Source: Eggerthella lenta DSM 2243 (GTDB taxonomy: Bacteria > Actinomycetota > Coriobacteriia > Coriobacteriales > Eggerthellaceae). Taken from it: a stretch of DNA of 64,000 nucleotides. The notes beneath the pieces were generated by a model. The model was not told the DNA's origin and searched no databases. It worked only from the letters and a program-made list of their open reading frames with translations. Numbering within the stretch: the stretch's first letter is position 1; each line of letters begins with the position of its first letter. The stretch is from NCBI RefSeq assembly GCF_000024265.1, contig NC_013204.1:2980501-3044500 (forward strand). The letters run 5' to 3'. The position numbers were made by a program, and so were the translations under genes. Of the stretch, positions 50,148 through 64,000 are shown one piece after another.

Positions 50148-51143
50148 TTGCAGCATTGGTTTTGGGCATACTCCCTTTATCGGCTTTCGAAAGGGACGAC
50201 CCAGAAAAACGATAGCGTCGGAATCGACGATGGAGCCAAAGCGATAGGTGATATTGCATTAGTTTCTGCTCGCTCCATCGACGTCAAGAGCCTTATCCAT
50301 GTCGTGAGAAACCAGCAAGTTATGCTTGATAGCGATCTGGCTTTTCTCTACGACGTAGAAACAAAGGTTTTCAATTAAGCAGTAAAGCGCAACGAAAGCC
50401 ATTTTCCCGATAGATTCAGATTCCGACTTCCCTCTGAAGAGTACGAGCGTTTGAGGTCACAAACTGTGACCTCAAACGGGAGAGGCGGAAGGCGATACCT
50501 CCCTTACGCATTTACGGAGCAGGGCATCGCGATGCTTTCGGCGGTTCTCCGCAGCGATGTCGCGATCGAGACGAGCATTCGCATCATAGACGCTTTCGTA
50601 GAGACGCGTCGCTTCCTCGCAAGCAATGCAGCGCTTTTCGAGCGCATCGGACAAGTCGAGCTAAAGCAGCTTGAATACCAGAAGACCACCGACAAGAAGC
50701 TCGATCGGATTTTCGCCTACCTAGAAGATACGCCTGAAACTACTCAGAAGATTTTCTTTGACGGCCAGTTATTTGACGCATTCAGTCTCATGGTCGAGCT
50801 CGTCCAGAAAGCTCAATGCGAGATCGAGCTAGTAGATGGCTACGTCGATGTCTCGACTCAAAATATTTTGGCAAAGAAAGCGGTAGGCGCTTCCGTATCC
50901 GTGCACACGCTTCCCGATGCACGGCTAACAAGGGCCGACATCAACACGTTCAACTCTCAATACCCGACACTGAAGGTGCAACGCACCTCTGCCTTTCATG
51001 ATCGCTTCTTGATCATAGACCGTTCGATCGGGTATCACATCGGCGCATCCCTCAAAGACGCCGGCAAAAAGTGTTTTGCCATAACGAAAATCCAAGATGC
51101 CCAGATGATGGAAGGCCTTCTCGAACGACTGAAGAAGATTTGA
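50148..51143 (+). pseudogene. ORF6N domain / PLD-like protein, interrupted by TAA
   Basis: The frame gives VKSLIHVVRNQQVMLDSDLA and FLYDVETKVFN, then TAA at 50376-50378, and continues in the same frame AVKRNESHFPDRFRFRLPSE and YAFTEQGIAMLSAVLRSDVA. The stop replaces the conserved glutamine of the ORF6N signature (VFNQAVKRN), a single CAA-to-TAA change. The C-terminal half (residues ~120-230 of the second part) resembles a PLD-like domain with HDRFLIID. Start uncertain. ORF6N proteins are DNA-binding antirepressor-type proteins of mobile elements. Two open pieces remain, 50148-50378 and 50451-51143. Confidence 0.78.
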
Positions 51144-51210: not shown

Positions 51211-52683
51211 CTAGTTTCCGTGGTGGAGTTCAGGACCATTTACCCGAACACCTCCGCTGTCATCAACGATCTGTCCGATATCGTCGTCACCGCCCTCGAA
51301 GGTGAACGCGATATGCAAATCGTCATCGCCTACGAGAACAACTTTCGAGACGAACACCTCGATCAGAGTTTCCGGGTCCTCCTCCTGTGCGATATCTTCA
51401 AGCCAGAACAAAATGCGGTTGCGATCAACCGTCACGCTTTCAATCGACACTGCCACGCGCAACTCGTCTTCGAGAAGTTCTTTGCGCTTCGTAAGCTCTT
51501 CCACGCGCTCTTTACCACCGGGAGGCGCGTACCCTCCTTCAATCGCCTGCCAGATTCGATCAAAGGACAATTCTATATCGTGCAGTTCCGACCTGATGAT
51601 CTCCGATTGAGGCTTCGCGCCGGTATCTTGCTCGATTTCCGCAACCAGATCCGCGATCTTCTCGCGCGTTGCCTCGTCGGACAACGCGGCGATCACGGCA
51701 TCCGCCACGTTCGCCTCTATAATGTCCTTCCGAACGTTTCGCCGGCATTTCTTGCACCTGTAGTAATAGTAGCGAGTGCCGGCCTTCGACGTGCCGCTCG
51801 TGCCGATCATCGGGGTTTTGCATTTTCCGCAGAACAGCTTACCGGTCAAGGCGTAGTTCTCCGTGTTCTCGCGCTTGCGCGGGCGCGCGTTCTTCTCAAG
51901 AATCTTCCAGATCATTTGCTGCTCCTCCAATGACCACAGAGCCGGCATGCCTCCCGGAATCTCGTACCCAGCATACACGTATATGCCTGCGTTCTGCTTG
52001 CGCTTGAGCATCTTGGTAATTGCAGACTGGGTAAACTTGTTGCCGAACTGCGTTCGGTAAGGTTCGCACGCTCTTCTGATATCCGCGATCATCGAGCCGG
52101 AAAGCAGCATGTCCTTCATCATGCGCATTACGGTTGCCTGCTGCTCGTTCAGTGCATAGAACCCATCAACGATATCCCAGCCGTACAACCGTTGACCATT
52201 CGCCATGCATCGCTCGGCGTTCTTCGCGATCCCTTCGGTGATGCGCTCTGAATCGACGGCGCTCTCCCACTCCGCGAGGACTTCGAGCATTCCGAGCTGC
52301 AACACGCCGGACGACCCCTCGGCGATCTGCTCGCCTGCGTAGAGGATTTCAACGCCGCATTTGCGCAGCATTATGCGAGCGAGCGCCATTTCGTCGCGGT
52401 TGCGCATGATGCGCGGGACCTTGTAGATAACCACGTAGTCCATCAAATGCCGCTTGGCGTCCTCAAGCATCTGCTGAAAATCTGCGCGATTGGTATCGCG
52501 GCCCGTCTTCGCTTCGTCGATATAGACTTTCACGACTTCAAGCTCGTGCTCGTGGCAATAGGCGTAGTCGTTATCAAGCTGTATTTCGATGGATTCGCCG
52601 CGCTGGTTGTGCGACGAGTAGCGCGCGTATATCGCGGCGCGAGCGCCCTTCTTTGGAGCAGAACGTTTCGCCCGCTTCGCCAT
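51211..52683 (-). CDS. large serine recombinase (phage-like integrase)
   Basis: A 490-residue site-specific recombinase of the large serine family. The N-terminal resolvase domain has the nucleophile serine in AAIYARYSSHNQ, then a conserved arginine region YKVPRIMRNRDEMAL. A recombinase domain and a zinc ribbon (CGKCKTP ... CKKCRR, ~residues 290-325) follow, then a coiled-coil stretch. It catalyses integration and excision. Gene at the left end of the element, on the minus strand, as expected for a prophage. Confidence 0.92.
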   Translation of the reverse strand: MAKRAKRSAPKKGARAAIYARYSSHNQRGESIEIQLDNDYAYCHEHELEVVKVYIDEAKTGRDTNRADFQQMLEDAKRHLMDYVVIYKVPRIMRNRDEMALARIMLRKCGVEILYAGEQIAEGSSGVLQLGMLEVLAEWESAVDSERITEGIAKNAERCMANGQRLYGWDIVDGFYALNEQQATVMRMMKDMLLSGSMIADIRRACEPYRTQFGNKFTQSAITKMLKRKQNAGIYVYAGYEIPGGMPALWSLEEQQMIWKILEKNARPRKRENTENYALTGKLFCGKCKTPMIGTSGTSKAGTRYYYYRCKKCRRNVRKDIIEANVADAVIAALSDEATREKIADLVAEIEQDTGAKPQSEIIRSELHDIELSFDRIWQAIEGGYAPPGGKERVEELTKRKELLEDELRVAVSIESVTVDRNRILFWLEDIAQEEDPETLIEVFVSKVVLVGDDDLHIAFTFEGGDDDIGQIVDDSGGVRVNGPELHHGN

Positions 52684-56187: not shown

Positions 56188-57235
56188 GGCGAAAGCGGCC
56201 GATACGGTCGAGGTCGTCGAGGTGGAAGCCGAGATCATCGACGGCGCAGAAGATCAGCAGAAGGCGGAGCTGTCCGTCACCAACAAGCCCGGGAGCATCG
56301 AGGCGAACTTCGACGCGTTGGAGGAATACGTCGATGGCATCCTCGAAGATTACGCGGACTGGGAGCCGTCGGCGGACAACGCCGAGGACGTGAAGCAGTG
56401 CGACCGCGAGAAGAAGTACCTCAACGGCCTCGCCTCCCAGCTCGACACGCGGCGCAAGGCCGTCAAGTCGGAATACCTCAAGCCCCTCGACGCCTTCGAG
56501 GCGCGCGCCAACTCGATCCGCGACAAGATCAAGGCGACGGCCAAGCGCCTCGACGACGTGAAGAAGCAGGCGGATCAGGCGGAGAAGGACGCCAAGTATT
56601 CCGCGCTCGAAGCCCATTACTGCGAGTTCGCCGAACTGCTCGCGCCCGTGGTGCCTTACGCGAGGCTCCATGATCCCAAGTGGCTCAACAAGCGCCCCAC
56701 CCTGCCGCAGGCCATCAAGGAGCTTGACGCGAAGGTGGAAAAGGTCGCGAACGACTGGGACAGCCTCAAGAAGCGCAACCTCGAATTCCACGATGCTGCA
56801 GAGGCGTTCTTCTTCGAGCACTTGGACCTCGGCGCAGCCTGCACGTATAACGACAAGCTCGTGGAGGACCACAGGCGCATCGAAGAGCTTAAGCGCGAGA
56901 TGGCGCAGGAGGAAGAGGCACAGGAGGCCGCGCCAGCGCAAGAGCGACCGGAGCCGGCACCTGCGCCGATGCCCGCGCCGGTGCCCGTGAGCGCGCCGCA
57001 GCCCGCCCCCGCGCCCGTCGTCGCGTGCGCGCCGCAGCCCATGCCCGCGCCTATGCCGGAGCCGGTCCCGCCCGACGCAGGCCCTTACGTCATGGTCATC
57101 AACTTGGCGACGCTCGACCAGATTCAGCAGATCGGCCGGTTCTCCGGGAGCATCGGGGTTACCGGCGTTTTCAAACGCGGCACGCTGCAAGAGGCGTATA
57201 TGCGCGAGGCGGGGGGTGTCGGATATGACCGGTAG
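56180..57235 (+). CDS. DUF1351 family phage protein
   Basis: A 351-residue protein of the DUF1351 type common in Gram-positive phages beside recombination genes. The core ~residues 30-220 is coiled and charged (YLNGLASQLDTRRKAVKSEY; LKPLDAFEARANSIRDKIKA). A Pro/Ala-rich linker (PAPAPMPAPVPVSAPQPAPA) leads to a small C-terminal domain (YVMVINLATLDQIQQIG). A role in recombination with the ERF protein is inferred from position. Confidence 0.8.
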   Translation: MPRAKAADTVEVVEVEAEIIDGAEDQQKAELSVTNKPGSIEANFDALEEYVDGILEDYADWEPSADNAEDVKQCDREKKYLNGLASQLDTRRKAVKSEYLKPLDAFEARANSIRDKIKATAKRLDDVKKQADQAEKDAKYSALEAHYCEFAELLAPVVPYARLHDPKWLNKRPTLPQAIKELDAKVEKVANDWDSLKKRNLEFHDAAEAFFFEHLDLGAACTYNDKLVEDHRRIEELKREMAQEEEAQEAAPAQERPEPAPAPMPAPVPVSAPQPAPAPVVACAPQPMPAPMPEPVPPDAGPYVMVINLATLDQIQQIGRFSGSIGVTGVFKRGTLQEAYMREAGGVGYDR

Positions 57236-57758
57236 CGTCATCCAATCCAAGCTGCTCGAGATTCAAAACGCCCTCAAGGTCGAGAAGGGGCATTACAGCG
57301 ACTACGGCGAGTATTACTACCGGAACAAGGAAGACATACTCGAAGCCGCCAAGCCGCTGTGCCACGAGAAGGGATGCATCATCACATGCGACGACGACGT
57401 TCGACTGCTTGAAAACGGATGGGTGTACGTCGTCACGACCGCACGCCTCACTGACGTGGAGAGCGGCGAGAGCGAGGAGCGCCACGGATGGGCGCGCGAG
57501 GTCGCGGAGAAGACGAAGATGGACCCGTCGCAGATAACCGGAGCTGCATCGTCCTACGCAGGGAAGCGCGCCCTCGGGAACCTGTTCGCGCTCGACGATT
57601 CGACCGACGCGGACGGCCAGGGGGCGAAGCAGGAGCCTCCGGCGAGCGGCCCGTTCCTCGCCCGCTGCCGGAGCTGCGGCACCCGCATGCAGTTCTTCAA
57701 CCCGGAGCAGATGCGCACGTACCGCTGCTGCCCTAACCCCGACTACGAGGTGGAGTGA
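57225..57758 (+). CDS. ERF-family single-strand annealing protein
   Basis: A 177-residue annealing protein of the ERF/Rad52-like phage class: MTGSVIQSKLLEIQNALKVE, GHYSDYGEYYYRNKEDILEA, ERHGWAREVAEKTKMDPSQI and TGAASSYAGKRALGNLFALD. A C-terminal zinc knot has CRSCGTRMQFFNPEQMRTYR then CC. The ATG at 57225 is preferred, with GGGGGGT 8 nt upstream; an in-frame GTG is at 57216. It overlaps the previous stop by 11 bp. It works with SSB and RusA in phage recombination. Confidence 0.85.
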   Translation: MTGSVIQSKLLEIQNALKVEKGHYSDYGEYYYRNKEDILEAAKPLCHEKGCIITCDDDVRLLENGWVYVVTTARLTDVESGESEERHGWAREVAEKTKMDPSQITGAASSYAGKRALGNLFALDDSTDADGQGAKQEPPASGPFLARCRSCGTRMQFFNPEQMRTYRCCPNPDYEVE

Positions 57759-58105
57759 TGCAGGAGCTTTACGCGCAGCTCGACGAGCTGACCGACGCCC
57801 TCATGCGCGAGCTTGATACGTGCAAGACGAGCGGTTGCCAGTACGCCGAGAACGAGGCCGAATACCGCAAGGCCCTGCGCATCGAGATCCTTGCGGAACG
57901 CGACAAGCGAACGCCCGTGACCATCATCAGCGACGTTTGCCGAGGCAAGCCCGAGATAGCCGCGCTCAAGCAGCGGCGCGACTGCTCGGAGGCGATCTAC
58001 AAGGCGTCGCAAGAGGCGATCAACGTATACAAGCTGCGCATGAGGATGCTCGACGCGCAGATCAGCCGCATATGGAGCAGCGGCGGACAAGGAGGAGCGG
58101 CATGA
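57755..58105 (+). CDS. phage protein, unknown, helical
   Basis: A 116-residue helical protein with a CKTSGCQYAENEAEYRKALR segment and a basic C-terminus (YKLRMRMLDAQISRIW). It overlaps ERF and SSB by 4 bp each. Position between them suggests a recombination accessory. Confidence 0.65.
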   Translation: MMQELYAQLDELTDALMRELDTCKTSGCQYAENEAEYRKALRIEILAERDKRTPVTIISDVCRGKPEIAALKQRRDCSEAIYKASQEAINVYKLRMRMLDAQISRIWSSGGQGGAA

Positions 58106-58608
58106 AGGACTTCGTGATGGACGGCTACGTGTGCAAGGGCGTCGAGGTGCGCAGCACGCAGGCCGGGAAGCTGGTGACCAAGTTCACCCTCAACTCGCCG
58201 GACTACAACCGCAGCACGCAGCAGAGCGAGCCGGCCTTCTTCCGGTGCGAATACTGGCACAACGGCCAGAACGACCCAAAGGCGGCGAACATCGTCGAGG
58301 GTGCCGTGCTGCTCGTCTGGGGTTCCATGCGCTTCGACCAGTACACCGACAAAGCAGGAAACAAGCGCAGCGAGACGGCATTCAAGGTGCGCGAGATCGG
58401 GCTTATCAAGCCTCCTGCGAGGCCGCAGCAGCCGCAGTACGCGCCGCAGCCGACACAACAGGCGTACGCGCCGCAATACGCGCCGCAGCCGGCCCCTGCG
58501 CCCGTCCAGCAGCCCGCAGCGGCCTACCAGCAGCCCGCGCCCGTCGCCGTCCCGCCGCAGGCCGTCCAAGTTCCCATGTCGGTGTACGACGAAGATATCC
58601 CCTTCTAG
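58102..58608 (+). CDS. ssb: single-stranded DNA-binding protein
   Basis: A 168-residue SSB: OB-fold residues 1-105 (GKLVTKFTLNSPDYN; FFRCEYWHNGQ), a Gln/Pro/Ala-rich linker, and the acidic tip DEDIPF that docks partner proteins. The ATG at 58102 overlaps the previous stop. Phage version of the host protein. Confidence 0.9.
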   Translation: MKDFVMDGYVCKGVEVRSTQAGKLVTKFTLNSPDYNRSTQQSEPAFFRCEYWHNGQNDPKAANIVEGAVLLVWGSMRFDQYTDKAGNKRSETAFKVREIGLIKPPARPQQPQYAPQPTQQAYAPQYAPQPAPAPVQQPAAAYQQPAPVAVPPQAVQVPMSVYDEDIPF

Positions 58609-58618
58609 GCGTCAGACC

Positions 58619-59314
58619 ATGGGTTTCTATTTTCAAGATGACTTTTGGGAGGCGTGCAGCGAGCTGCCGAAAAAGGACAGGGACGCCGCAGCGGCGGCAA
58701 TCGTCGCCTACTACTTCGACCCCGACGAGAAGCCGAGCATCAAAGGAGCATCAAAGGCCGTGTTCATCGCGTTTCGCGAGCGCATCGACCTATCGCGCAA
58801 ACGCTCGAACGCGGGCAAATCAAAGCCCGATCAAAACGACGATCAAACGAAGGATCAAAGCAGAATCAAACCGAAAGCAACAGGCGATCAAAGCGGCAAT
58901 CAAAACCGCGATGGCTCCAATGTCAAACCGGACGGTCACCTATTAAAGGGGGAGAGTGAGAGGGAGAAAGACCTTAAGGAACCCCCCTTACCCCCCTTGG
59001 ACGAGTGCGACAACGAGGCGGCGGCATTCGCCGTCGAAGCCCTCGCTGCCTTCAACGCCATCACCGGGCAGGACGTGCGCGACATGCCCGGTGACGCGTG
59101 GTGCGGCCTTCGCCGCGTGTTCGACGCAGGCCGCACCATCGACGACGTGAAAGCCGTCATCGAGAAGAAGAACGCCGAATGGAAGGACGACAAGAGGATG
59201 GCGCGTTTCGTGAGGCCGTCCACCCTGTTCGGCGACAAGTTCGACGAATACCTCAACCAGAAGGACGAAGGAGGTTCGAGTGCAGAAACTAGCGAATATG
59301 CTGCGACGTTCTGA
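58619..59314 (+). CDS. phage replisome organiser-type protein
   Basis: A 231-residue protein. The N-terminus (MGFYFQDDFWEACSELPKKD) is of the DUF6291 type, a Lys/Asp/Gln-rich linker follows (QNDDQTKDQSRIKPKATGDQ), and the C-terminus matches the conserved phage C-terminal domain (FNAITGQDVRDMPGDAWCGL; VIEKKNAEWKDDKRMARFVR; PSTLFGDKFDEYLNQ). It would bind the origin and recruit the DnaC-like loader encoded next. Confidence 0.8.
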   Translation: MGFYFQDDFWEACSELPKKDRDAAAAAIVAYYFDPDEKPSIKGASKAVFIAFRERIDLSRKRSNAGKSKPDQNDDQTKDQSRIKPKATGDQSGNQNRDGSNVKPDGHLLKGESEREKDLKEPPLPPLDECDNEAAAFAVEALAAFNAITGQDVRDMPGDAWCGLRRVFDAGRTIDDVKAVIEKKNAEWKDDKRMARFVRPSTLFGDKFDEYLNQKDEGGSSAETSEYAATF

Positions 59315-59978
59315 TCGCCGCAGCCTTGAGAAGGTAATGAAAATGCCCGCGCTCACCGACGAGCAGAGGGCGGAGATCGACCGCGAGGCGAAGGAGGCGG
59401 CAAGGCGTGAGCACGTGCGCGTCGCCAGGCAGAGGATCGCGAGCGCGCACATCCCTCCGCTGTACGCATCCGCATCGCTCGAAGACTGCCACCCTGCGGT
59501 CGCGGAGTACGCCAGCGAGGTCGCGGAAGGCGGCACGGGCTGGCTCCTGCTCACAGGCCGCAACGGGCGCGGAAAGACGCACCAGGCTTGCGCTGCGCTG
59601 CTCCACCTCGCCAAGACGCACCGCGTGGAGTTCGCGACGATGCAGGGAATTCTCGACGAGTGCAAGCAGACGTTCGGACGGCCGGAGAGCGAGGAGGACG
59701 TGAAGGCGCATTACCGCAACGTGCCGGTGCTCGTGCTCGACGACCTCGGCAAGGAGAACCCCACGGACTACTCGCTGCCCATCATCTTCGACATTGTGGA
59801 CAGGCGGTATACGCGCCTCAAGCCGACGATCATAACCACGAACATGAACGCCGCCCAGCTCTTGGCGCACATGTCAACGAAGGGCGACCGCACCATGGCC
59901 GAATCGGTCGTTTCGAGGCTCGTGACCGCCCGCGTTGTCGAGATCACCGGGCCGGATCGGAGGCTTCGCAATGCCTGA
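59280..59978 (+). CDS. DnaC-like helicase loader ATPase
   Basis: A 232-residue ATPase of the DnaC/IstB type. Walker A GRNGRGKTH (~residue 92), Walker B VLVLDDLGKENPT, sensor TIITTNMNAAQLL, and the C-terminal VVSRLVTARVVEITG. It starts at GTG with GGAGG upstream, overlapping the organiser gene by 35 bp. It loads the helicase at the phage origin. Confidence 0.86.
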   Translation: MQKLANMLRRSDRRSLEKVMKMPALTDEQRAEIDREAKEAARREHVRVARQRIASAHIPPLYASASLEDCHPAVAEYASEVAEGGTGWLLLTGRNGRGKTHQACAALLHLAKTHRVEFATMQGILDECKQTFGRPESEEDVKAHYRNVPVLVLDDLGKENPTDYSLPIIFDIVDRRYTRLKPTIITTNMNAAQLLAHMSTKGDRTMAESVVSRLVTARVVEITGPDRRLRNA

Positions 59979-60684
59979 ATTCGAGGTGATAGCGGGCGAC
60001 ATGTTCGACGTGATCGGGCGCGTCGAGCCGGCTTCTTGCCGGTGCGTGCTCATTGATCCGCCCTACATGATCGGCACGCAGAGCGTCCACCGCGACAACA
60101 TGATCGACCCGTGGGCCGACCTCATGAACGGCGCGAGGTTCTACCGCGAGGTCATCGACGCGGTGCGGCCGAAGCTCACCAAGGACGGGGCCATGTGGCT
60201 GTTCATGAACTGGCGAGGCCTGCCGGGAATCTACAAAGCGTCATGTGATGCGAAGTGGCTCCCCGCCTCGTGCATGGTGTGGTCGAAGGACTGGCCCGGA
60301 ACCGGCGACCCGCTGCGGGCGTCGCATGAGCTATGCCTTCTCTACACCTGCGATGGCTTCAAACGGCCGAACGCCAAGACGCTCGACGTGCAGACGTTCA
60401 AGCTGGTTCCCACCGCCCACCGCGTGCACAGCGCGCAGAAGCCCGTCCCCCTGCTGCGCATGATGCTCGACTTCACGACCGCGCGAGGCGACAAGGTGCT
60501 TGATTGCTTCTGCGGCTCCGGCTCCACGGGCGTCGCCGCCGTCTCTATGGGCCGTAGGTTCGTCGGCATCGAGGCGAACGCGGCCATCGCGGAGGTCGCG
60601 AGGAGGCGCATCGAGGGCGAGGCTTCGCAAGGTCAGTTGTTCGTTACGTCAGAGGAAGGCAAACGTGGAAACATCGAGCGATAA
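59971..60684 (+). CDS. DNA methyltransferase (N4/N6 type), phage copy 1
   Basis: A 237-residue amino-methyltransferase. Catalytic LIDPPYMIG near the N-terminus and the SAM-binding CFCGSGSTGVAA near the C-terminus, i.e. the beta-class order. A conserved AHRVHSAQKPVPLLR precedes the SAM motif. No restriction partner is adjacent. It overlaps the DnaC-like gene by 8 bp. Likely protects phage DNA from host restriction. Confidence 0.85.
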   Translation: MPEFEVIAGDMFDVIGRVEPASCRCVLIDPPYMIGTQSVHRDNMIDPWADLMNGARFYREVIDAVRPKLTKDGAMWLFMNWRGLPGIYKASCDAKWLPASCMVWSKDWPGTGDPLRASHELCLLYTCDGFKRPNAKTLDVQTFKLVPTAHRVHSAQKPVPLLRMMLDFTTARGDKVLDCFCGSGSTGVAAVSMGRRFVGIEANAAIAEVARRRIEGEASQGQLFVTSEEGKRGNIER

Positions 60685-61462
60685 CACGATCAGGAACGTG
60701 GACGCATTAGCGGGGCTTCGGGAGCTTGAGAGCGATTCATGCGACGCGCTTCTCACAGACCCGCCCTATTCGTCCGGCGGCATGTTCCGAGGGGACCGCG
60801 CCGGCAAAACATCGAAGAAGTACCAGAGTACGGGCGTCATCGACGTCAAGCCGGAGTTCTACGGCGACAACCGCGACCAGTTGAGCTTCATGCACTGGTG
60901 CGCCATGTGGCTTTCCGAATGCCACCGCGTTTTGAAGCAGGGATCGGTGGCGATGGTTTTCACCGACTGGCGGCAGATCGCGGCGACGGTGAACGCCTTG
61001 CAGATGGGCGGGTTCATCTACCGAGGCGTCTTCTCATGGATAAAGCCTGCCGCGAGGCCGCAGAAGGGCCGTTTCACCTCGAACGCCGAATACTGCGTTT
61101 GGGGAAGCAAGGGGCCTATGCCGTCAGATGGCTGCTGCATCAAAGGCTACTTCGAGAAAAGCCCGGAACCTACGGCGAAGCGCATCCATTCCACGCAGAA
61201 GCCGGTCGAGCTTCTCGAGCACCTTCTCAAGATCACACCCGAAGGATGCACGGTGCTCGATCCGTTCATGGGTTCAGGCTCCACCGCTATTGCAGCGATA
61301 AGAACGGGCAGGTCATTCATCGGGTTTGAAATGAGCGAGGAGTATTGCCATCTGGCGAACGGCCGGGTATCGGCGGAGCTTTCCCAAGAAACGCTCTTCA
61401 ATGAAGGGGGGGGGGCAGATAGATGGCTAAGACGACTTTGCCGCCGATTTGGTGGCCGTTGA
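60665..61462 (+). CDS. DNA methyltransferase (N4/N6 type), phage copy 2, with G10 tract
   Basis: A ~265-residue beta-class methyltransferase: LLTDPPYSSGG, HSTQKPVELLEHLLKITPEG and VLDPFMGSGSTAIAA. Starts at GTG 60665 with GAGGAAGG upstream, overlapping copy 1 by 20 bp. Near its 3' end lies a run of ten G (61406-61415). With ten G the frame continues GADRWLRRLCRRFGGR into the next gene; with nine it would end at EGGGQIDG, close to the usual C-terminus. So the C-terminus is frame-dependent. Confidence 0.85.
   Translation: METSSDNTIRNVDALAGLRELESDSCDALLTDPPYSSGGMFRGDRAGKTSKKYQSTGVIDVKPEFYGDNRDQLSFMHWCAMWLSECHRVLKQGSVAMVFTDWRQIAATVNALQMGGFIYRGVFSWIKPAARPQKGRFTSNAEYCVWGSKGPMPSDGCCIKGYFEKSPEPTAKRIHSTQKPVELLEHLLKITPEGCTVLDPFMGSGSTAIAAIRTGRSFIGFEMSEEYCHLANGRVSAELSQETLFNEGGGADRWLRRLCRRFGGR
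61406..61415 (+). repeat. G10 homopolymer
   Basis: Ten consecutive G in the 3' end of methyltransferase copy 2 and 7 nt before the HNH ATG, where it also acts as the ribosome-binding site. Prone to slippage. Confidence 0.9.
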
Positions 61463-61857
61463 TGGACGCGCCGACCATCCGCCTCGAACGTTGCCCGATC
61501 TGCGGGCGAACGCAACCGCTCAACTCGCACCACATCGTCAAGCGTTCGGCCGGCGAGCTGTTCGACGCCCACGGTCGCAAGCGCAAGAAGCCCGAGATCA
61601 CGCTGTGCGGCTTCGGCAACAACCTGCGCGACGCGGACGGCCGGTATTACTGCCACGGCCTCGCGCACCACGAAATGCTGCATTTCCGCTGGGTGCCGAC
61701 CTACGAGGCAATTGGATCGACGTACCCGAAACTCGACGGCGGGCACCTCGAATACCTGCTGACCGACGAACCGACGAAGTACGACGCCGCCCTCAAAATG
61801 GACGGGTGGCAGAGGGTGAAGACCGACTGGCAGAACGCGGAACTATGGGTGTGCTAG
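61423..61857 (+). CDS. HNH-type protein
   Basis: A 144-residue protein with CPICG and NSHHIVKRSAG, a downstream CGFGNN and HEMLHFRW. The layout CxxC ... HH ... N ... H is that of HNH nucleases. It begins 7 nt after the G10 tract, which serves as its Shine-Dalgarno, and overlaps the end of the long frame of methyltransferase 2. Confidence 0.72.
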   Translation: MAKTTLPPIWWPLMDAPTIRLERCPICGRTQPLNSHHIVKRSAGELFDAHGRKRKKPEITLCGFGNNLRDADGRYYCHGLAHHEMLHFRWVPTYEAIGSTYPKLDGGHLEYLLTDEPTKYDAALKMDGWQRVKTDWQNAELWVC

Positions 61858-62066
61858 ACCGCTTCGGAGGGCCGCAGGCGTGGGATATCAACTGCGCCAC
61901 GCAGGACGCCGCGCTCGCGGCCCTCAAGCACGCGAACCCCGGATGCGGGACGTGCGAGTACGGAATCGTCTGCCCGGATTGCGGGCTGGCGTACTGCAAG
62001 GAAACCGACGAGTGGGGCGACAACTTCGCCCCGCCATGCGAATACGAGGGATGGCAGGAGAAATGA
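61845..62066 (+). CDS. small zinc-binding phage protein
   Basis: A 73-residue protein with six or more cysteines (PGCGTCEYGIVCPDCGLAYC) fit for zinc. It overlaps the HNH stop by 13 bp and the next ATG by 4 bp. Function unknown. Confidence 0.6.
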   Translation: MGVLDRFGGPQAWDINCATQDAALAALKHANPGCGTCEYGIVCPDCGLAYCKETDEWGDNFAPPCEYEGWQEK

Positions 62067-62524
62067 CCAAGGAGAAAGAGGCGTTCTGCGGAAAAGGCGG
62101 CGTTGCCTTTTCGAGCGAGAGGCACTATTGGGAAACGCCGCAAGATCTGTTCGACACGCTCGACAACGAGTTTCACTTCACGCTCGACCCGGCAAGCACG
62201 GACGAAAACGCGAAGTGCGAGAAGCATTACACGATAGAAGACGACGGGCTATGCCAGTCATGGGCAGGCGAGCGCGTTTTCTGCAATCCTCCATACGGGA
62301 GAGAGCTATCGAAATGGGTGAAAAAAGCCCATGCCGAAGTCGCCCTTAACCCCGGAACCGTCGTCGTCATGCTGATACCAGCCCGCACAGACACAACGTA
62401 TTTTCACGACTACATCTATCACAAGGCGGAGGTCCGTTTCATCCGCGGTCGCTTGCGGTTCTGTATTCAAGGCAAAGCCAAGGATGCGGCCCCGTTCCCC
62501 TCGATGGTGGTGGTGTTCCGATGA
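62063..62524 (+). CDS. phage Dam-type adenine methyltransferase
   Basis: A 153-residue enzyme of the phage N6-adenine methyltransferase (Dam) type: WETPQDLFDTLDNEFHFTLD, the catalytic VFCNPPYGRELSKWV and VVMLIPARTDTTYFHDYI. The third methyltransferase in 2.6 kb. Shorter than cellular Dam, normal for this phage family. The alternative is a degradative DNA-binding relic, but all motifs are intact. Confidence 0.83.
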   Translation: MTKEKEAFCGKGGVAFSSERHYWETPQDLFDTLDNEFHFTLDPASTDENAKCEKHYTIEDDGLCQSWAGERVFCNPPYGRELSKWVKKAHAEVALNPGTVVVMLIPARTDTTYFHDYIYHKAEVRFIRGRLRFCIQGKAKDAAPFPSMVVVFR

Positions 62525-62865
62525 CGCGACCCGTGCTGTACGTCTCCGGCCCCGTCACCGGCATGCCCGACGACAACCGCGAGGCGTTCGAGGCCGCAGC
62601 CGACGAGCTGGCGGCGTGCGGCTACATCGTCCGCATACCGCACTGGGACGTGCGGCCCGGAGAGAAGTGGCCGGCGGCGATGCGGATCACCCTCATGGCG
62701 ATCATCGCGCAGGCCGACGGCCTCGCGATGCTCGACGGATGGGAGCGCAGCGAGGGCGCGCAGCTTGAGGCCCACGTGGCCCGCAGCCTCATGATGCCCG
62801 TTAAGACCGTCAGCCAGTGGGCCGCTAGGATGCCAGCGAAGAGAGGACGGAAAACATGCAAGTAG
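62521..62865 (+). CDS. DUF4406 family protein
   Basis: A 114-residue protein starting LYVSGPVTGMPDDNREAFEA, the signature of the DUF4406 / nucleoside deoxyribosyltransferase-like fold, with DGLAMLDGWERSEGAQLEA. Possibly acts on nucleotides. Coupled by ATGA to the Dam gene. Confidence 0.78.
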   Translation: MTRPVLYVSGPVTGMPDDNREAFEAAADELAACGYIVRIPHWDVRPGEKWPAAMRITLMAIIAQADGLAMLDGWERSEGAQLEAHVARSLMMPVKTVSQWAARMPAKRGRKTCK

Positions 62866-63131
62866 CAACGCCTTGGCAATGGCAGTTCCCGCCGTGCTCG
62901 AAATGGATACCGAAGAACGGACGTATGCGGCGCGACCAAGCATTGAAAATCATCGAGGAAGCAGAAGAGGTGATGAAGGCTCAAAGGGTCGGTGATCCCC
63001 TCTACGCAATGGAGCTTATGGACGTCATCAACGCCTGCGAAACCGCGTTGCGAGAAGTGCCGGAAGACACACTCGACAGCATCAAGCGCGCAACCATACG
63101 CAAGAACGAAGAGCGAGGGTACTACGAATGA
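62856..63131 (+). CDS. MazG-like nucleotide pyrophosphohydrolase
   Basis: A 91-residue helical protein: ALKIIEEAEEVMKAQ and YAMELMDVINACETAL give the EExxE ... ExxD metal pattern of all-alpha NTP pyrophosphatases. Such phage enzymes sanitise nucleotide pools or lower (p)ppGpp. Overlaps both neighbours. Activity inferred. Confidence 0.65.
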   Translation: MQVATPWQWQFPPCSKWIPKNGRMRRDQALKIIEEAEEVMKAQRVGDPLYAMELMDVINACETALREVPEDTLDSIKRATIRKNEERGYYE

Positions 63132-63331
63132 GCGCGACGTGGCATGACATAGCGAAGGAGGAACCGCCGGCGGGGATCCTCGTGCTTTGCCAAGGCGCGC
63201 ACGGCGAGCTGTTCCTCGGCGTCCACGTCGGCCTCGGATACTTCGCCGTTCCGAACAGCCGAGGCGGACGCATAGCCGTCGCATGGCACGAACTACCCGA
63301 ACCATACTTACCTAAGGAGAAAACGCTATGA
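63128..63331 (+). CDS. DUF551 family protein
   Basis: A 67-residue protein: WHDIAKEEPPAGILVLCQGA and VAWHELPEPYLPKEKTL, the usual DUF551 start and end. Common in phages; function unknown. Confidence 0.75.
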   Translation: MSATWHDIAKEEPPAGILVLCQGAHGELFLGVHVGLGYFAVPNSRGGRIAVAWHELPEPYLPKEKTL

Positions 63332-64000
63332 ACGATTTGAAGATATACGCGCAAAACCTCGAATCAGCCGCGATGGAGCAGATCGAGACGCTCGCGAACG
63401 CGCCGGCGTTCGAGGGCGCGAAGATTCGCATCATGCCCGATGCTCACGCTGGCGCGGGCTGCGTCATCGGCTTCACGGCAAACCTCGGGGATAAGGTGGT
63501 GCCCAACCTCGTGGGCGTCGATATCGGATGCGGGATGCTGACTTCGCGCATCGAATTCATCGAGGAATGCCACCTCGACGAGTTCGACGAGGTGGTGAAG
63601 AAGAGCGTGCCGTCAGGATTCGCCGTGCACAACGTCCAGACGTGCGACATTGACGCGATGGGGCTTCTATGCCGCAACGAGCTGCAGAACGTCGCACGCC
63701 TTGAGCGCAGCATGGGGACGCTTGGAGGCGGGAACCACTTCGTCGAGATCGACGCCGCCGGCAACGGCGACGCGTACCTCGTCGTGCACTCCGGCTCCCG
63801 AAACCTCGGACTGCAAGTCGCCAACATCTACCAGCGAATGGCCGTCGAGACGTGCAAGGAGCCGACGCCGAAGGGCCTCGAATACCTCACCGGTGAGCTT
63901 CGCGACGCCTACCTCCACGATATGCACCTGTGCGAGCGATGGGCGGGGCTGAACCGAGAGGCGATGATGCACGCAATATACCGCGAGGCTCGATTGGGCG
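63328..64000 (+). CDS. rtcB: RtcB family RNA ligase, partial (runs off window)
   Basis: RNA-splicing/repair ligase that joins 2',3'-cyclic phosphate to 5'-OH ends with GTP and Mn2+. 224 codons are visible from the ATG at 63328 (ATGA overlap with DUF551). Metal-site motifs present are MPDAHAGAGCVIGFT, VGVDIGCGM (metal cysteine), GTLGGGNHFVEID and VVHSGSRNLG. The C-terminal guanylylation histidine (SHGAGR-type) lies beyond the window. An RtcB in a phage early operon suggests repair of tRNA or other RNA cut by host defence nucleases. Confidence 0.9.
   Translation, partial: MNDLKIYAQNLESAAMEQIETLANAPAFEGAKIRIMPDAHAGAGCVIGFTANLGDKVVPNLVGVDIGCGMLTSRIEFIEECHLDEFDEVVKKSVPSGFAVHNVQTCDIDAMGLLCRNELQNVARLERSMGTLGGGNHFVEIDAAGNGDAYLVVHSGSRNLGLQVANIYQRMAVETCKEPTPKGLEYLTGELRDAYLHDMHLCERWAGLNREAMMHAIYREARLG

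Follow-up and report, generated by a model that had tools for sequence, protein, structure and literature searches.

The window, by which we mean the whole 64,000-base stretch of DNA analysed here, covers bases 2,980,501–3,044,500 of the single-contig, 3,632,260-base genome of the gut bacterium Eggerthella lenta DSM 2243, and its right edge falls inside a gene for an RtcB RNA ligase. The gene lies in a particle-forming prophage published as DSM2243phi4 (genome positions 3,031,719–3,068,586). The published work describes excision, a circularised attP, DNA that is protected from DNase and reaches 26-fold host coverage, and a diversity-generating retroelement that is active, RtcB being absent from the main text of that paper (PMC8778435). 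The standing of DSM2243phi4 as a functional prophage comes from this literature, and the element is also found in IMG/VR as a 37-kb viral contig. The only tRNA gene in the stretches covering the prophage is a tRNA-Ala near its right end, in agreement with the tRNA-Ala site at which it is reported to integrate (PMC8778435); no phage-borne tRNA gene was seen within the DSM2243phi4 genes.

In window coordinates, used from here on, the left end of the prophage is marked by a large serine integrase (51211–52683, − strand; phrog_95, 299 bits). Just outside it, at 50148–51143 on the + strand, are two adjacent ORFs, the second of which matches the PADLOC candidate defence model PDC-S05 (E 8e-90) from its position 73 onwards, while the first looks by eye like the missing start of that model, so that a single gene may here be split in two. 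Within the prophage, PHROG matches identify an Erf-like annealing protein, an SSB, a replication initiator-like protein and a DnaC-like loader (57216–59978, +), followed on the same strand by a DNA methyltransferase (59971–60684; phrog_67), an HNH endonuclease family protein (61423–61857; phrog_28142), a Dam-type adenine DNA methyltransferase (62063–62524; PF05869, 107 bits) and a DUF4406 protein resembling nucleoside deoxyribosyltransferases (62521–62865; PF14359, 118 bits; phrog_355). A RusA resolvase is also encoded on the prophage left flank. Two small + strand ORFs come next, of 91 residues (62856–63131) and 67 residues (63128–63331), each overlapping the following gene by 4 bp and each lacking a Pfam, PHROG or NCBIfam match; the 91-residue product appears MazG-like by eye. 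The 67-residue product had been labelled DUF551 in the preliminary description, an identity that finds no Pfam match at E ≤ 0.05.

The rtcB gene itself starts with the ATG at 63328 (+ strand) and runs without a stop to the window end at 64000, which corresponds to residue 224. Reading on into the host contig places the TAA stop at the equivalent of 64437 (genome positions 3,043,828–3,044,937), giving 369 codons with no internal stop. An AAGGAG ribosome-binding site, read directly from the sequence, occupies 63313–63321 on the + strand about 9 bases before the ATG, and the start codon sits within the ATGA that ends the 67-residue ORF, as the preliminary description had noted. On the other side, the next ORF begins 11 bp before the last base of the rtcB stop codon, and the second ORF downstream again starts through an ATGA overlap. 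These overlaps on both sides indicate that rtcB belongs to a tightly packed operon. A terminase gene follows about 1.3 kb downstream, and then more long genes on the same strand. The gene is thus placed between the early replication and modification genes of DSM2243phi4 and its terminase, and the PHROG matches together with the published prophage (PMC8778435) confirm the early-region setting that had been proposed from the first reading.

That the gene encodes a true RtcB is directly supported by profile matches, active-site residues and fold, which also rule out a chance ORF and bear out the original identification. Its product scores 198 bits against Pfam RtcB (PF01139; cut-off 27) and 415 bits, over almost its full length, against PHROG 1075, annotated as tRNA splicing ligase. 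The active site was examined in an alignment that combined this protein, its E. coli counterpart and 104 relatives from phages and cells. The roles of the RtcB active-site residues are established by structural work, and all eight residues checked, namely the Mn2+ ligands, the guanylylated histidine and the C-terminal lysine, are kept: E. coli D75, C78, N167, H168, H185, H281, H337 and K407 correspond to D65, C68, N136, H137, H154, H235, H284 and K355. The eight columns are invariant across the 104 other aligned RtcBs, save for two gaps at the lysine. Three of these residues, H235, H284 and K355, lie beyond the window edge, and their presence in the full gene disposes of the catalytic loss in the unseen C-terminus that the preliminary description had named as the observation that would overturn its reading. 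The AlphaFold2 model (pLDDT 92.3, pTM 0.91) has as its top PDB match the RtcB–GMP/Mn2+ complex 4dwq (E 6e-25, TM 0.80), and all 16 PDB matches at E ≤ 0.001 are either RtcB structures or 2epg, a family member without an assigned function. The enzyme therefore appears catalytically complete, and we predict that it is active. A helical insert of about 40 residues after the HSGSRNLG motif, found in most phage relatives, is absent from this RtcB and from its two nearest relatives on the tree described below; since E. coli RtcB also lacks most of the insert, its absence is not regarded as a deletion in the prophage protein.

In a tree of 106 rows, built by a quick search and with SH-aLRT support only, a fully supported split sets the phage and Eggerthellaceae RtcBs apart from those of E. 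coli type and from the long actinobacterial ones. The prophage protein groups, with 100% support, with an RtcB from an Eggerthellaceae genome (L007, 62% identity) and with its closest viral relative, from a 116-kb viral contig (L039, 61%). The latter locus (L039:6001–8572; IMG/VR 3300031998_000026) brings two different RNA ligases together, with a DRB0094-type ATP-dependent RNA ligase encoded about 350 bp downstream of RtcB, and a KptA RNA 2′-phosphotransferase gene lies near one other viral RtcB; both neighbourhoods favor a role in RNA repair. The unrelated 112-kb E. lenta phage LE2-3 also carries RtcB (L026:8001–9224). This protein is 43% identical to that of the prophage and stands elsewhere on the tree, on a separate, long branch, and the two E. 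lenta phages thus appear to have acquired RtcB separately.

Eggerthellaceae RtcBs are not all prophage-borne, as the neighborhoods of L119–L126 look chromosomal, to judge from a rough gene call and a few family matches. In one of them (L119:7343–9310, genome G112), an ADP-ribosylglycohydrolase gene (PF03747) is followed, after a gap of about 100 bp, by an rtcB with 62% identity to that of the prophage, and the pair possibly forms a two-gene unit in these chromosomal-looking surroundings. In several other Eggerthellaceae genomes (L120, L123 and L127), RtcB lies near an FtsH-like AAA ATPase, with PrfH also beside RtcB in L120 and a weak WYL-domain match further upstream in L123, and the surroundings look like an RNA-repair or defence island. 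Among the viral loci, no conserved partner emerged: when minus-strand ORFs lying antisense to the end of rtcB are disregarded, no cluster of neighboring ORFs is shared by more than 7 of the roughly 70 viral RtcB loci, and no Pfam family occurs in more than 3 of 121 viral RtcB neighbors. Of the viral loci scanned for tRNA genes, only a minority have one near RtcB. Homologues of RtcA and PrfH were not found in the prophage stretches (L003–L005) or in the viral-locus stretches examined. Archease, which the preliminary description had suggested looking for, gave no match among the prophage neighbors scanned against Pfam and PHROG, a set that takes in part of the small ORFs, and is absent from the list of 25 families in the viral neighbor set.

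RtcB is a less common solution in phages than the T4-type enzymes, as had been supposed at the outset. With the full prophage protein as a single query, 625 of 50,697 phage records match, so that at least 625 carry relatives, chiefly mycobacteriophages and Listeria, Bacillus, Caulobacter and haloarchaeal viruses; equivalent single queries with T4 Rnl1 and T4 Pnkp match 1,750 and 2,191 records, respectively, in counts where T4-like phages are oversampled. A survey of jumbo phages likewise finds RtcB to be the rarer solution (PMC7824862), and a scan of IMG/VR yielded at least 585 confirmed RtcB relatives. Protection against tRNA-cleaving defence was proposed for phage RtcB in 2011, for cluster K1 mycobacteriophages (PMC3203893), and the RtcB of Adephagia appears in a list of phage proteins whose expression inhibits M. 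smegmatis (PMC11373665). The counter-defence idea is therefore already published and its novelty here is low, although we found no tested target of any phage RtcB in the literature searched.

The type of RNA end is central to what this enzyme might repair. PIN/VapC enzymes form a metal-dependent class that leaves 5′-phosphate and 3′-OH ends, which RtcB does not join, whereas RelE/HicA-class, colicin-type or HEPN enzymes have suitable end chemistry. In the host genome, neither a PrrC-type AAA_13 nor a MazF homologue was detected. The ribonuclease candidates obtained, in a search that covered PrrC-type AAA_13, MazF, RelE/ParE, HicA and PIN families, are four RelE/ParE-family, two HicA-family and three PIN/VapC-like genes, of which the RelE/ParE and HicA families provide the putative metal-independent enzymes. 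The interpretation first put forward is partly borne out, in that RtcB is complete and its gene sits among the early genes of a functional prophage. No anticodon nuclease emerged as the target, however: PrrC and MazF were not found, and VapC, although represented by the three PIN/VapC-like genes, has the wrong chemistry for RtcB.

Taking these observations together, we consider it most likely, and better than an even bet, that this early/middle-operon RtcB reseals tRNA or rRNA cut by metal-independent ribonucleases and thereby sustains phage translation. The protein would act as an Mn2+- and GTP-dependent ligase that joins 3′-phosphate or 2′,3′-cyclic-phosphate RNA to 5′-OH RNA via a histidine–GMP intermediate. 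It would be made within the early/middle operon of temperate DSM2243phi4, and after induction or infection it would reseal cellular RNA, either tRNA or rRNA, cut by host or competitor ribonucleases, so that translation could continue for the phage. The timing of expression and the substrate proposed here are inferred, and repair of rRNA or mRNA matches the sequence evidence as well as repair of tRNA does. A counter-defence role is plausible and, as noted, already in the literature.

The existence of a PrfH-linked, RtcB2-type relative in the broad clade makes specific repair of the ribosome, rather than of tRNA, a live rival, though one to which we assign a clearly minor share of probability. 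Here, the enzyme would resemble RtcB2 of the RtcB2–PrfH operon and reseal 16S or other rRNA cut by ribotoxins of the colicin E3 or CdiA type, from which either the phage or the lysogen would profit. The clade, whose split from the E. coli-type and long RtcBs has full support, includes an Eggerthellaceae RtcB adjoining a PrfH above the NCBIfam cut-off (L008/L120), but its long branch leaves its position unsure. Likewise, the PrfH-coupled model TIGR03073 is among the best NCBIfam matches of the prophage RtcB, but at 95.4 bits against a cut-off of 271.8 the score is far below, and PrfH was missing from the stretches examined. RtcB2–PrfH is known to protect against colicin E3, and overexpression of RtcB2 alone suffices (PMC9223846).

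Somewhat less likely still is that the RtcBs of DSM2243phi4 and LE2-3, placed separately on the tree, both answer a ribotoxin or RNA-cleaving defence, yet to be described, that would be common in Eggerthella, whose own genome lacks an RtcB. Lysogenic conversion, whereby rtcB expressed from the prophage would give the lysogen a general RNA repair otherwise missing from E. lenta, apart from any part in phage replication, is improbable in our judgement. It draws on the distribution of the gene: no second RtcB was found elsewhere in the host genome, and matches occur in none of the three other Eggerthella genomes and in 11 of 138 genomes of the family. However, rtcB lies inside an array of overlapping early/middle genes instead of standing apart under a promoter of its own, as morons typically do, and a consensus scan gave no promoter for it, although such scans say little in a GC-rich host. 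A role in DNA 3′-end capping, which some bacterial RtcB paralogues are reported to have, or none at all, the gene being a mere passenger, would suit the diversity of RtcB phages and their lack of a common conserved partner gene, but retention of the active site across the phage clade and the RNA-repair genes adjoining some relatives make either very unlikely.

Compared with known systems, the prophage protein is closest in kind to the PHROG 1075 RtcBs of Dulem virus 39, Bacillus and Listeria myophages, LE2-3 and mycobacteriophages, which share the family over most of its length, the active site and the stand-alone gene, although the best named phage is just 48% identical. The cluster K1 mycobacteriophages (for example Anaya gp88 and Adephagia gp84) are likewise temperate, infect actinobacteria and have a stand-alone RtcB, about 31% identical to that of the prophage, but they carry a tRNA-Trp gene, whereas DSM2243phi4 has none among its genes. 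With the RtcB2–PrfH operon, the prophage enzyme shares the broad clade, but not the NCBIfam cut-off or a nearby PrfH. The fold and active-site residues are common to E. coli RtcB of the rtcBA operon and to archaeal and human RtcB–archease, all of which belong to a distant clade, the prophage protein being shorter and having no RtcA or archease match in the genes examined. T4 Rnl1 and Pnkp, which repair tRNA, may share its biological aim, but are unrelated enzymes that proceed by end healing and ATP-dependent sealing, in contrast to the direct joining of 2′,3′-cyclic-phosphate and 5′-OH ends by RtcB.

In summary, the gene belongs to a known kind, is unremarkable within it, and probably mends RNA damaged in infection. 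Beyond its use as a test system it adds one further case to a published idea, but because the prophage is functional and its type-strain host has no other RtcB, it offers a clean setting for testing which RNA a phage RtcB acts on.
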